This document shows positions 4,592-56,433 of a stretch of 64,000 nt of DNA, piece after piece (positions within the stretch are counted from its first letter, which is position 1; each line of letters starts with the position of its first letter). The notes under the pieces were generated by a model, which had not been told where the DNA came from, did no database searches, and was given only the letters and a program-made list of their open reading frames with translations. This DNA is from Thermotoga sp. SG1. GTDB lineage: Bacteria > Thermotogota > Thermotogae > Thermotogales > Thermotogaceae. The stretch spans positions 297,004 to 361,003 of the forward strand of contig NZ_LNDD01000001.1 in assembly GCF_002865985.1 (NCBI RefSeq). The letters run 5' to 3'. The position numbers were made by a program, and so were the translations under genes.

Positions 4592-5239
4592 TCAAAGTCC
4601 AAGGTCTTCAAGTGTCAAGATCACCTTGAACCTTCCAGGCTGCCTCACACCGGATTCCACCACCAGGAAATAATCGCATATTCTCTGGGGAGAAGAACAG
4701 TCAGCGCAGAATCCTGTCTTGGTACATGGGGTTTCCAAGTTCAAACGCTTTGAATTCATCGGAGAAATGTACCTCAACCTCTCTCTTGCTTCTCCGACAT
4801 TTTTTACCACTTTGTTCACGCTTGCAACCACAACTACATTCCTGGGACCGTAGACAACCGCTGCCACTCTGTTCCCGTTTCCGTCGAGAAAGACCAGTTT
4901 TCCATCCTCCGTTATAGCATTTGCGCTGGTGAAGTAGTAATCGGCCCAGAAACTCTTTCTGTATATTTCCTCCACTTCCTCTCTGGTTTTGGCGGAATAC
5001 CTGTCAAGGAAGTTGTATTTTCCGCTGCGCAGAAGATCGAGAACACCAGTATCAGCCAGTGTGAGAGAACCACCAACCGCCACGGTTGCGCCTTCCGGAA
5101 CGATTTCTTTTACCTTCTCAACGACCTCTTCCCTGTCTTTCACCACCCAGACTTCATGTTTCTTTTTTCTTAAATTGTTAGCCAAATACTCAGCAATCCT
5201 CTCTTTCTTCCAAAGCCACAGATCTTCTCTCAAACTCAC
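4592..5239 (-). CDS. LUD-domain protein (LutC/YkgG-like)
   Basis: A 215-residue single-domain LUD (DUF162) protein. The fold is NagB/RpiA-like and relatives take part in lactate oxidation complexes. Visible features are the glycine/serine loop AVGGSLTLADTG, FTSANAITEDGKLVFLDGNG and NRVAAVVYGPRNVVVVAS. A C-terminal cysteine group, TPCTKTGFCADCSSPQRIC, could bind a metal. The GTG at 5239 is chosen because AAGGAGGTG (5247-5255) lies at ideal distance; the open frame runs 43 codons further but has no ribosome site there. The gene stands alone next to oriC, without the LutA/LutB partners, so its substrate is unknown. Confidence 0.85.
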   Translation of the reverse strand: MSLREDLWLWKKERIAEYLANNLRKKKHEVWVVKDREEVVEKVKEIVPEGATVAVGGSLTLADTGVLDLLRSGKYNFLDRYSAKTREEVEEIYRKSFWADYYFTSANAITEDGKLVFLDGNGNRVAAVVYGPRNVVVVASVNKVVKNVGEARERLRYISPMNSKRLNLETPCTKTGFCADCSSPQRICDYFLVVESGVRQPGRFKVILTLEDLGL

Positions 5240-5618
5240 AGTGAAACACCTCCTTAAGTACAAATTTTTGAGATTTAGATACAAAAATATCTTATCTGAA
5301 ACTAAAATGGTAGGTTTGGTGGTAGGTTTCTGAACACTACTTATAGTATCCATGAGCAGAAAACGCACAACATGAAGTAGAAAAACTACTGAAGAATCGT
5401 TCTTTGCTTCTTTTTTTCACAAACAACCTACCACTTCTCTCTGAAATCATCTTCCAAAGCCAATTTAAAGGTGGTAGGTTTCTGTATGCTTCATCAAAAG
5501 AGTACTTTAGTTCTCACAAACAATTTTACTGCAAAACCTTCGTTTTTTGAAATCCTCTTCAGAAAAGATTTTCAGAAAACCTACCACCTGAAACCCTCTT
5601 CAGAAGCGACTTATAGAA

Positions 5619-5666
5619 TAACTTACCACTAACCTACCACTAACCTACCACCCGGGTGGTAAGTTG
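5619..5666. repeat. Phased DnaA-box cluster (three direct, one inverted)
   Basis: Three forward boxes step by exactly 11 bp (TAACTTACCACT, TAACCTACCACT, TAACCTACCACC), about one helical turn, so bound DnaA would lie on one DNA face. They are followed by one reverse box across a short GC palindrome. This is the densest part of the origin. Confidence 0.85.
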
Positions 5667-5718
5667 CAGACTTTATTCTTTCTCACACCAAAAAACGGAT
5701 AGAAATTTTCAACTCGAG

Positions 5719-5730
5719 AAACCTACCACT
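5719..5730 (+). promoter_or_regulatory. DnaA box next to the unwinding element
   Basis: AAACCTACCACT matches 11/12 to the consensus. It points toward the CTA-triplet run that starts 15 bp later, the same relative direction as the box and trio in the B. subtilis origin. Confidence 0.8.
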
Positions 5731-5745
5731 TTATGGTCTGTTATA

Positions 5746-5763
5746 TTACTACTACTACTACTA
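5746..5763 (+). other. DnaA-trio / DNA unwinding element
   Basis: Six consecutive triplets, one TTA then five CTA, read on the plus strand. The complementary strand is 3'-AAT then five 3'-GAT, which fits the DnaA-trio consensus known from bacterial origins where DnaA grips single-stranded DNA. The stretch 5731-5775 is AT-rich, as expected of the melting site. Confidence 0.75.
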
Positions 5764-5767
5764 AGAG

Positions 5768-5773
5768 TATAAT
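5768..5773 (+). promoter_or_regulatory. -10 element for the yceD-rpmF operon
   Basis: A perfect TATAAT starts five bases after the last CTA triplet. A start near 5780 would give a very short leader with AGGTGAG (5781-5787) almost at the 5' end. The -35 would lie inside the trio and is not recognisable, so origin melting and this promoter share DNA. Confidence 0.5.
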
Positions 5774-5791
5774 AGTCATGAGGTGAGAAGA

Positions 5792-28481: not shown

Positions 28482-29137
28482 CTTCCTCCCCCCACAAAGG
28501 TGTATCCTATTCCCCAGACCGTTTTTATGTACCTGGGCCTGTTCGGGTCGTCTTCTATGGCTTTTCTGATCCTCTTTATTACCGTGTCGACAGCCCTTGG
28601 TGAGACAGGCTCTTCCCAGAACGTTTCCAGGAGTTTTTCCCTTGTCACAACCTTTCCTGCATTTTCCACCAGAAAAAGAAGAACCTCGAACTCTCTTTTG
28701 GGAAGATGAATCCTCTTTCCTTTCAGATAAACGGTTGCACCGGTTGCATCCACCTTCAGTTCACCGAAGTCATAGAGGTTCTTCTTTTGCCTCTCCAGGA
28801 ATCTTTTCACTCTCGCAAGGAGGATATCCGGGTTAAAGGGCTTTGTTACGTAGTCGTCCGCTCCCGCTTCGAAACCCTTCAGAACATTCTCGTCGTCCGA
28901 AAGCAGTGTGAGGAGTATCACCCAGGTTTCAGGGTGTTTCTCTTTTATCATCCGACAGAGTTCGTATCCGCTGTAATCGGGCAGTTTCACGTCGAGGACC
29001 ACAACGTGGAAAATTTCCTCACCGTCGAGGAAGTCCTCTCCGGTGAGAAAGGTCTCCACGTGCCCCAGTTCTGAAAGCTTTTCCCTGAGGATCTCCAGAA
29101 TTTTTTCATCGTCATCGACAACGGCAATTTTCCACAT
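28478..29137 (-). CDS. OmpR-family response regulator
   Basis: A 219-residue regulator. The receiver domain has VVDDDEK, phospho-acceptor Asp in VVLDVKLPDYSG, LLTLLSDDEN and KPFNPDILLARV. The C-terminal winged helix carries LPKREFEVLLFLVENAGKVV and IKTVWGIGYTFVG. The ATG at 29137 shares one base with the stop of the ABC permease (TGATG), so the two-component pair is translated from the metal-transporter operon, which suggests related control. Confidence 0.93.
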   Translation of the reverse strand: MWKIAVVDDDEKILEILREKLSELGHVETFLTGEDFLDGEEIFHVVVLDVKLPDYSGYELCRMIKEKHPETWVILLTLLSDDENVLKGFEAGADDYVTKPFNPDILLARVKRFLERQKKNLYDFGELKVDATGATVYLKGKRIHLPKREFEVLLFLVENAGKVVTREKLLETFWEEPVSPRAVDTVIKRIRKAIEDDPNRPRYIKTVWGIGYTFVGGGR

Positions 29138-29934
29138 CAAGAAAATTTTAACATTGGAATGAAGGAAACGAAAGCAACTATCACAATGACGGGACCGGGT
29201 GGTAGGTTGAGGATGTAGGCGGCAAGAAAACCAGAAAAGAAGGTGAGTACATTGAACACAATGGATATCACAACCAGCGATTTGAAAGATTTTCCAAACG
29301 TTCTGGCAACCAGTCCGGGAAGTATCAAAAGGGCCCCCGTGAGAATAACACCTACCACCTTGACGGTTACAACCACGGTGATCGCTATGAAAGAGGTGAT
29401 CAGAAGACGCACAAAGCCTGTTTTGATACCATAGAACTGGGCCATTTTCTCATCCACGATGAAATACTTGATCTCCCATCTAAACAGCAATATCAAAACC
29501 GTGTTTATCACCAGAATGAGAGATGTCAACATCACATCTGAACGGTTCACAAGCAGAACATCTCCGAACAGAAATCCCATCACATCCGTTTGGTATCTTC
29601 CCGAAACGGAAAACAGCACAACCCCGATGGCCATGAAGAGCGGAAGAAGGATACCTATGGCGCTGCTTTCGTGAAGTTTTGAACGGGAAAAAAGAGTCAC
29701 GGCCAGAGCAAAAACCAGCGCTGTGGCGAAAGAGATCAGTCTGGGATCACCACCGAGGAGGGCAGAGAGTGCAAGACCGGCAAAGACCGCGTGCGCCGTC
29801 CCATCCCCTATGAACTCCATTCTCTTGAACACCACAAAGGGAGAAACGATGCCAGCCAGAATGGCGGTGAGTACACCACCGATGAAAGCCGTTCTCAGAA
29901 ATTCGTACTGGACGAGATCATGGAAGAAGTTCAA
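29137..29934 (-). CDS. znuB: Metal ABC transporter permease (ZnuB/MntB-like)
   Basis: A 265-residue permease of the ABC-3 family, with about eight membrane segments. It shows VFKRMEFIGDGTAHAVFAGL near the N-terminus and VKVVGVILTGALLILPGLVA, the family signature. It forms an importer with the ATPase and binding protein upstream. Zinc is more likely than manganese because of the Fur-family Zur-like regulator. Confidence 0.9.
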   Translation of the reverse strand: MNFFHDLVQYEFLRTAFIGGVLTAILAGIVSPFVVFKRMEFIGDGTAHAVFAGLALSALLGGDPRLISFATALVFALAVTLFSRSKLHESSAIGILLPLFMAIGVVLFSVSGRYQTDVMGFLFGDVLLVNRSDVMLTSLILVINTVLILLFRWEIKYFIVDEKMAQFYGIKTGFVRLLITSFIAITVVVTVKVVGVILTGALLILPGLVARTFGKSFKSLVVISIVFNVLTFFSGFLAAYILNLPPGPVIVIVAFVSFIPMLKFS

Positions 29935-54577: not shown

Positions 54578-56433
54578 GGTTTCACCCTCCTTTTAACAAG
54601 ATTTCTGTAAAGTATGATTGCAGAAAAAGCGATCAAAAGTATCTCCATGTGGAAAGTGTGTGCGGCAGAGGTTTCAAAGGATATCGGAAAGATTCCGCTT
54701 TCCACGAACACTTCCAGGTGTTTCCAGTTGATCGCAGTTGAGAGAGCAGCAAACAGAGTTGCTCCAGCCGGTATCAGAACATACTTTCCTCCCAGAAGTG
54801 CGGAAAAGAACAGAAGGAAGAACCAGAAGATTTCCTTCAACCCGGAGATCGTCTGATGGGGTTTCAGTGAAGGGTATTTCTTCTCTCCGGTGAAAGAAAA
54901 AGTTACGTCGGTTATCAGTGAATACCTGTCCAAGGAGGCTTTCAGATCCTCTTCAAGATCCTCAACGAACCTGTTTGAGGTGTACGTCGAGATTTTCTTC
55001 ACCAGATGCTCCAGGCTTTCAAGCGCATTTCTGTAGCGCCTGTATCTGGACTTTTCCTCTGAGAGGTAGTCTTCCAGGCTGGTGTTCATCTCTCTTGCGA
55101 TTTCCAGTCGTCTTTCGAAATTCGAGGTGGAGAAGAACTGAGATTGTTCGTCGATCAGAAGAAAGATGCCGTTCGGGGTTGGCTCGAATTCCTTTAAAGC
55201 ACCTTCTTTTAAAAACTTTTCTGGAACAAGACTCAGGTGTTCCACAAGCTGCTTTGTGTGCTCTTTGCTTGCGAGTGACAATGCGGACATTTCCCTGAGT
55301 ATTTCCTTCACCCTGGAGTTATTGCTTTCAAAGACTTCTGATTTCAACTGATCGTAGTAGGGAGAGTTTTCAAACTCTCTGTCCATTCCAAGTTCACGAA
55401 CAGAGATGTAAGACGGCACAAACAGGAGTATCAGGAAAGCGGCGGTGAGCAAGGTGTATCCGTACTTTCTCTTTCTGATGAGCAGAAGATTGAAAAAGAT
55501 GAAAGCAAAAATTAGAATGCTTGAAAAGATAATGTTTTCGATCGTGTTCAAATGAACCGTATTTGAACCCCATACAAACAGAATCTCGGAGGAGAGGATC
55601 AGCTGAAGGATCAGTCGATACTTCCTTCTGAAGGCAACCAGGAGGAAACTGTAAAGAAGGTATCTGAGCCACAGAAGACGAACCTTTTTTGGGGTGGTTT
55701 TTTCAAAGAGGTCTGCGATGTTGTTTTGAATGATGGAAATCTTGTTTTCTACCTCTTTCCACAGAAGGCTGGCATTTCTGTTCACGTTCCTTCTGTACTC
55801 AGATTGGTCTTTTGAACTGAGAACAGCATCAATTGCGATTTTTACCTTCTCTTCGAAATCTTCTGGCAGGAGTGTGAGGACGTCCTGTGGAACACTTTGA
55901 TTTACCTCAAAGGAAAATCCCAAGTTTTTGATTTCAAGGTTGAATTCGACGGGGGGAGGAGTGCTCGTGCCACCTGTGTAGTAGGAGAGGATCCATCTCA
56001 GCAGGTTCAGAGCGTTTGAGCGAACGTACATCTTGTACTCTCCGAAAAAGGAGTTGAACGATGGTGAGTTCTTCAAAGTACTTCTGGAAGGTTCAGACCC
56101 GGACATTTCAGACTGAAGGAAAGCAAGGAAAAGAGCGTTTGCCAGTTTTTTCTCCCAGCTTTCTTCCTTCCAGTTTTGGTACATCACGAAAAGGTAATCT
56201 CCTGCCGTCTTTGCAAACTCTGTCTTCTCTACACTACCAGCAAGAAGTCTTCGAAAGAACCTGTATTTTTGAAGCTGGGAAAGATTTTCATGGACGAACT
56301 CCACGAACGGATCCCGATAGGAACCGCTTCTGTACTCATCCAGCATCTGTTTGTACATCGAAACAACTTTCTCCACGTCGAGAGAAAAAGCAAGGAGAGG
56401 AATGATAGTCAGAATCAGAACGATCTTTTTCAT
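54574..56433 (-). CDS. Unknown 619-residue membrane protein, first gene of the BMP transporter operon
   Basis: I do not recognise a family. It has a signal peptide (residues 1-17), an exported alpha-helical region to about 250, four hydrophobic helices (about 253-270, 274-291, 300-320, 325-345), a soluble helical region (350-525) with a coiled-coil stretch near 450-490, and three more helices (534-550, 552-568, 595-611). The ATG at 56433 is the first start after the minus-strand promoter, with GAGAGG upstream; the longer open frame before it overlaps ligA and is not real. ATGA overlap with the BMP gene shows co-translation, so it may assist transport or sense its ligand. Confidence 0.7.
   Translation of the reverse strand: MKKIVLILTIIPLLAFSLDVEKVVSMYKQMLDEYRSGSYRDPFVEFVHENLSQLQKYRFFRRLLAGSVEKTEFAKTAGDYLFVMYQNWKEESWEKKLANALFLAFLQSEMSGSEPSRSTLKNSPSFNSFFGEYKMYVRSNALNLLRWILSYYTGGTSTPPPVEFNLEIKNLGFSFEVNQSVPQDVLTLLPEDFEEKVKIAIDAVLSSKDQSEYRRNVNRNASLLWKEVENKISIIQNNIADLFEKTTPKKVRLLWLRYLLYSFLLVAFRRKYRLILQLILSSEILFVWGSNTVHLNTIENIIFSSILIFAFIFFNLLLIRKRKYGYTLLTAAFLILLFVPSYISVRELGMDREFENSPYYDQLKSEVFESNNSRVKEILREMSALSLASKEHTKQLVEHLSLVPEKFLKEGALKEFEPTPNGIFLLIDEQSQFFSTSNFERRLEIAREMNTSLEDYLSEEKSRYRRYRNALESLEHLVKKISTYTSNRFVEDLEEDLKASLDRYSLITDVTFSFTGEKKYPSLKPHQTISGLKEIFWFFLLFFSALLGGKYVLIPAGATLFAALSTAINWKHLEVFVESGIFPISFETSAAHTFHMEILLIAFSAIILYRNLVKRRVKP

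Follow-up and report, generated by a model that had tools for sequence, protein, structure and literature searches.

In Thermotoga sp. SG1, the intergenic region between a LUD-domain gene and yceD is very probably the chromosomal replication origin (oriC) of this Thermotoga species, of the type described as tma-oriC. By its place, its box sequence and the number and layout of its boxes, the locus is orthologous to tma-oriC of T. maritima. As an origin it extends a well-studied type by one member; what is gained comes from comparing relatives. In seven of seven Thermotoga genomes, the ten DnaA boxes are nearly frozen in number, order, direction and spacing while the spacers between them turn over, which is new here.

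The origin region of Thermotoga sp. SG1

Positions are those of the window, i.e., the whole stretch of 64,000 nucleotides that was analyzed. The region contains the following features:

5240–5782, no strand: intergenic oriC region between the LUD-domain gene and yceD
5307–5315, minus strand: DnaA box 10, ACCTACCAT
5319–5327, minus strand: DnaA box 9, ACCTACCAC; 12 bp from box 10
5426–5434, plus strand: DnaA box 8; unchanged in the seven Thermotoga genomes
5471–5479, minus strand: DnaA box 7; unchanged in the seven Thermotoga genomes, each of which has 45 bp to box 8 and 108 bp to box 6
5579–5587, plus strand: DnaA box 6
5621–5629, plus strand: DnaA box 5, ACTTACCAC; first member of a triplet phased at 11 bp
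5632–5640, plus strand: DnaA box 4; phased triplet
5643–5651, plus strand: DnaA box 3; phased triplet
5656–5664, minus strand: DnaA box 2, ACTTACCAC; inverted, with a 4-bp gap to box 3
5721–5729, plus strand: DnaA box 1; adjoins the unwinding element, unchanged in the seven Thermotoga genomes
5749–5763, minus strand: eTrio, five TAG repeats (five times CTA on the plus strand); module of the DNA unwinding element bound by DnaA as single-stranded DNA, its role taken from T. maritima (Lu 2023, PMC10316083)
5768–5773, plus strand: TATAAT, a −10-like element ahead of yceD; adjoins the TAG run, present in seven of seven Thermotoga genomes

The gap has a length of 543 bp (5240–5782) if the LUD-domain gene on the minus strand starts at the GTG at 5237–5239 (start taken as 5239), ahead of which a ribosome-site-like cacctcc is found, and if the start of yceD is assumed at 5783. 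The list of open reading frames has the start of the LUD frame at 5368, with which the frame would cross DnaA boxes 9 and 10.

Boxes were defined as matches with at most one mismatch to the 9-mer ACCTACCAC, with which the T. maritima group has replaced the older 12-mer word AAACCTACCACC (Lu 2023, PMC10316083). The first-pass annotation had listed ten near-copies of the box, three of them perfect, and all these sites are present: with up to two mismatches, the 12-mer has nine sites in 5306–5730, perfect at 5318, 5470 and 5577, and the tenth site (5619–5630, TAACTTACCACT) has three mismatches to the 12-mer and one to the 9-mer. Likewise confirmed were the abutting pair at 5306–5329 and the 11-bp phased triplet (cores at 5621, 5632 and 5643) followed by a reverse copy (core 5656–5664), and the recognition of the box as the T. 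maritima DnaA site agrees with Lu 2023 (PMC10316083). The division into two clusters about 290 bp apart is only loosely true and a poor parse, as boxes 6–8 fall between the two and box 1 outside them. The unwinding element with its TAG repeats had been overlooked.

The ten 9-mer sites with up to one mismatch in 5233–5783 compare with a mean of 0.10 and a maximum of 2 in 1000 single-base shuffles. Eleven further sites of this kind occur in the window, where no other 460-bp stretch holds more than two; the 12-mer with up to two mismatches has 15 sites in the whole window versus 3.99 expected. Genome-wide, 21 sites of the 12-mer with at most one mismatch were counted versus 13 for a reversed-pattern control, and all three perfect 12-mers of the genome are inside the oriC gap. 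Given this genome-wide count and the lack of a dense stretch elsewhere, single near-copies are ordinary, but the cluster is not. Two near-boxes at 29198–29209 and 29348–29359 (12-mer with one mismatch, 150 bp apart) fall within a permease-like reading frame (29137–29934), which we take to be of the ABC type, and were set aside as probably due to chance.

The region aligns to genome G091, and G091 and G093 contain the published T. maritima oligo TMA28. In T. maritima, tma-oriC also has ten such boxes (Lu 2023, PMC10316083). By comparison with G091, it shares with our locus the place upstream of yceD, the ten boxes with their order and spacing, the inverted box 2 with its 4-bp gap, and TAG repeats whose first TAC is separated from box 1 by 17 bp. 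It differs in having three TAG repeats instead of five, and its GC-rich stretch, earlier annotated DnaA-trio (AAATAATA) and TTATT are missing in Thermotoga sp. SG1. The minimal origin of T. maritima in vitro comprises 149 bp, i.e., boxes 1–5 and an AT-rich unwinding element, and unwinds without boxes 6–10; DnaA on boxes 1–5 interacts head-to-tail across the inverted box 2 and captures the TAG repeats, and both unwinding and single-strand binding require the three repeats of this element, the eTrio (Lu 2023, PMC10316083). Direct boxes 2 bp apart and an inverted pair 4 bp apart are the published in vitro optima (Lu 2023, PMC10316083), and exactly these gaps are found in Thermotoga sp. SG1. Regarding assignment to the tma-oriC type, boxes 1–5 have the published order (box 2 inverted, 3–5 direct), at least three TAG repeats adjoin box 1, and the cognate DnaA has V176, K209 and R251, the residues of single-strand capture and ATP contact in Lu 2023 (PMC10316083). 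Each Thermotoga genome encodes one DnaA (PF08299), and these residues are kept in seven of seven. The known core is boxes 1–5 plus the unwinding element, at about 5619–5775; the earlier suggestion of separate core and regulatory arrays was half right, the core not being the phased cluster alone.

The basal unwinding system of Bacillus subtilis (DnaA box, short spacer, DnaA-trios; PMC8287927) similarly has a box followed by TAG trinucleotides. However, the core of box 1 in Thermotoga sp. SG1 is 19 bp away from the first CTA/TAG unit and 17 bp from the first TAC, versus a limit of 16 bp between box and trios in the search program of PMC8287927, and no GC-rich spacer is present. The T. maritima model also has the strand bound via the distant boxes 3–5 and not by a filament that begins at the adjacent box. 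At two loci of other genomes (L124 and L126, in G072 and G074), five TAC/TAG repeats are located only a few bases past the last box, nearer to the B. subtilis arrangement than to that of Thermotoga.

Cumulative GC skew was calculated from 17 stretches spanning C1:102001–438000 (336 of 1840 kb, 18% of the genome). A minimum at 5.3–5.8 kb of the window had been predicted, and the lowest value of these 336 kb is indeed found at C1:302764, window position 5761 (−6824), but a nearly equal second dip lies 49 kb away at C1:351600, window position 54597 (−6778, within 46 units of the minimum). In bins of 20 kb, 10/10 before the origin are negative and 5/7 after it positive. In the complete chromosome G092 (origin at 539 kb, 20 samples, terminus taken as opposite the origin), the expected sign, negative before the origin and positive after it, was seen in seven of ten samples per presumed arm; the three contrary samples are at 1500, 1630 and 30 kb on one arm and at 570, 750 and 1020 kb on the other. 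The minimum is shallow, and the skew agrees with an origin at this place but would not prove it by itself. Nevertheless, the identification as oriC, already made in the first-pass annotation, holds despite the second dip because it is carried by the orthology to tma-oriC.

Two other explanations of the cluster were weighed. The replication origin of many bacteria adjoins dnaA, and in Thermotoga sp. SG1 dnaA is found on another contig (C4), away from this locus. The cluster could accordingly be seen as a DnaA-binding reservoir, with the true origin elsewhere, e.g., near dnaA, and the near-equal second skew dip would fit; yet the lowest skew is at the cluster, a TAG unwinding element is present, and the orthologous locus unwinds in vitro (PMC10316083), which leaves this explanation very improbable. 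Still far less credit, practically none, is due to a chance cluster of CACC/TACC-rich words: single near-copies such as those at 29198 and 29348 do occur elsewhere, and 21 sites compare with 13 control sites genome-wide, but ten sites stand against 0.1 expected, with no shuffle exceeding two, and the conservation of the cluster in seven of seven Thermotoga genomes refutes such an origin of the boxes.

Conservation within Thermotoga

From box 10 to box 1, the ten boxes have the same order of directions (−−+−++++−+) in seven of seven Thermotoga genomes, with spacings of 12, 104–107, 45, 108, 42/43, 11, 11, 13 and 65 bp; this layout leaves aside an additional near-box in G092 and another in G096. 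On a tree built from the spacers, 9 changes were counted in the 90 columns of the ten boxes and 224 in the 202 spacer columns of the seven fixed intervals. These seven intervals, which were chosen after seeing the data, have no length change across the seven genomes; taking all nine intervals, two vary, with at least four length changes, at least three of them in interval 9–8. As a control for insertions and deletions, 336 kb of C1 were compared with 337 kb of G091. From 75 gaps, 47 were dropped due to an open frame across the gap and 6 had no anchors, so that 22 were aligned (21 controls and the origin). The 18 of 21 controls below 90% identity yielded 31 gap events per 930 substitutions, i.e., 0.033 per substitution; one of these 18 (C1:303344–303534, presumably the rpmF region) is probably coding. 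About 7.5 length changes would be expected in the seven intervals versus none observed (P about 0.001, with the uncertainty of the control included). For Thermotoga sp. SG1 versus G091 alone, the region has 2 gap events with 147 substitutions versus about 5 expected, a weak difference. A constant distance of 65 bp separates box 1 from box 2, which fits the published need for helical phase between these boxes in T. maritima in vitro (Lu 2023, PMC10316083); binding of HU in this interval of T. maritima is cited in the same paper.

TAG runs are found in all seven Thermotoga genomes, with 3, 3, 3, 4, 4, 4 and 5 repeats, and the distance from the box 1 core to the first TAC is 17 bp in five genomes and 19 bp in two. 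TTATT and AAATAATA, on the other hand, are absent in Thermotoga sp. SG1, G092, G095 and G096 and present in G091, G093 and G094, and the GGGG of the GC-rich stretch is found only in G091 and G093 among the seven. Since TTATT and the DnaA-trio AAATAATA merely aid unwinding in vitro (Lu 2023, PMC10316083), they are supportive modules and do not define the tma-oriC type. The patchy occurrence of TTATT, AAATAATA and the GC-rich stretch, compared to TAG runs in all seven genomes, fits the published ranking of the modules.

The TATAAT at 5768–5773 is a putative promoter element of yceD, for which a −35 element was not identified. It follows the TAC run at 6 bp here and at 12 bp in G091, G093 and G094. 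Transcription of yceD and the genes downstream of it probably starts from a promoter that overlaps the unwinding element, and this overlap could couple transcription to origin melting.

Candidate origins beyond the genus

A triplet of boxes phased at 11–12 bp was searched for in 103 genomes of the phylum and detected in 26, including seven of seven Thermotoga genomes, G090 and 10 of the 11 of family f2; the reversed control was detected in 6. A box-to-TAG pattern matched in 46 of the 103, but its control also matches in many genomes, and therefore only matches inside box clusters were used. The candidate origin of f2 is not upstream of yceD: in G064, it adjoins an ACT/CBS-domain gene and glnA, and in G059 a MinD-like gene and a frame resembling, by eye, the same ACT/CBS gene. 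At the other 22 of 30 yceD loci from whole genomes and at L003–L005, at most two boxes of the ACCTACCAC word were found in the 700 bp upstream (688 bp for L032, 250 bp for L037). In the own-family genera g2, g3 and g5, in g12–g14 and in families outside the order, the three patterns gave no clear origin and only scattered single matches. When skew was followed over 120 kb around each candidate origin, the minimum was within a few bp in G064 and 3.3 kb off in G068 (family f3), while G059 gave no fit.

With the equivalence of f2 and f3 boxes to those of Thermotoga assigned by us, the layouts can be compared relative to box 1. Boxes are located at −66, −78, −89, −100, −144, −255, −299 and −332 in G065 and at −65, −78, −89, −100, −142, −250, −295, −402 and −414 in Thermotoga sp. 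SG1. The intervals 6–7 and 7–8 measure 108 and 45 bp in Thermotoga, 109 and 44 bp in G058–G061, and 111 and 44 bp in G065. Chance tests, performed post hoc, gave 0.018 for three of four outer G065 boxes within 5 bp and 0.003–0.004 for the 108/45 spacing pair. In G063, interval 7–8 is 44 bp, but box 6 was not found. The layout fits more poorly in the other f2 genomes G056, G057, G064 and G066: with the strict word, some outer boxes or intervals are missing in G056, G064 and G066, few boxes being found at all in G056 and G066, and G057 has phased boxes without TAG pairing. TAG pairing is also absent in three (G073, G075, G076) of the ten f3 stretches.

Box 2 is inverted in Thermotoga and G090, but direct at the same place in f2 genus g9 (G063, G064, G065). 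A T. maritima construct with direct box 2 (R2, gap to box 3 of 2 bp) unwound like wild type in vitro (PMC10316083). The g9 genomes resemble R2 in the direct box 2, with a gap to box 3 of 3 bp versus 2 bp, which supports the published in vitro result that the direction of box 2 does not matter.

Outer boxes, i.e., those beyond −200 from box 1, are mostly directed against the inner ones: 3/4 in each Thermotoga genome, 4/5 in G090, 5/7 in G067 and 4/5 in G068. With the strict word, the numbers are 3/3 in G058, G059, G060, G063 and G065, 3/4 in G061, 2/3 in G064, 2/2 in G056 and 1/1 in G066; a looser box rule adds one outer site in inner direction in G058 and in G059. In the candidate origins L021 (G090) and L130 (G067), four outer boxes form an array phased at 11 bp, which in G090 faces the three inner boxes phased at 11 bp.

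Possible role of the outer boxes

By comparison of relatives, boxes 6–10 appear to be under selection. No discussion of them was found in the parts of Lu 2023 (PMC10316083) covered here, whose main text lacks the phrase “boxes 6”, or in an open-licence library of papers. It is possible, though we consider it rather unlikely, that the origin consists of boxes 1–5 and the unwinding element only, and that boxes 6–10 are a DnaA-responsive control site unrelated to initiation, i.e., at the promoter of the LUD gene or for DnaA titration. Boxes 9 and 10 are indeed less than 90 bp from the start of this gene, and the 149-bp origin unwinds in vitro without the outer boxes (PMC10316083). On the other hand, the 6–7 and 7–8 intervals recur in G058–G061 and G065, and the candidate origins of G059 and G064 have neighbors other than a LUD gene. 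Since these intervals recur beside other genes, boxes 6–8 seem to travel with the origin, an argument which does not cover boxes 9 and 10.

The most likely role of boxes 6–10, to which we nevertheless give only about an even chance, would be a second DnaA assembly needed for full function in the cell, as their conservation suggests. They may well form a second DnaA arm. The origin of E. coli has been described as two arms facing each other, with left and right boxes oppositely directed (as told in Lu 2023, PMC10316083). Similarly, the inner boxes of Thermotoga point mostly in one direction and the outer boxes mostly in the other; the differences are the box sequence, the inverted box 2 and box 8, which is directed against the other outer boxes. 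From its layout, the outer half may be the match of the second arm of E. coli.

For initiation at the locus, orthology would suggest that ATP-DnaA binds boxes 1–5 and assembles head-to-tail into a filament that covers the phased triplet and the inverted box 2. The 65 bp from box 2 to box 1 would form a loop, so that the filament reaches the AT-rich element adjoining box 1. Capture of the melted strand with its TAG repeats would then make helicase loading possible. The outer boxes 6–10 would carry the second DnaA assembly, mostly opposed to the first, which might serve the second helicase or timing.

In the conservation of spacing, parts of the outer half equal the inner half, and the 149-bp minimal origin may therefore fall short of the full origin in the cell. 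Whether the outer DnaA array is conserved order-wide as part of the in-cell initiation machine, in a layout older than the exact box sequence, the direction of box 2 and the chromosomal position, we consider evenly balanced. If true, this array would have been overlooked since the minimal origin in vitro omits boxes 6–10. The relatives suggest that the cell also needs the far half of the origin to some degree, although the minimal version used in the laboratory lacks it.
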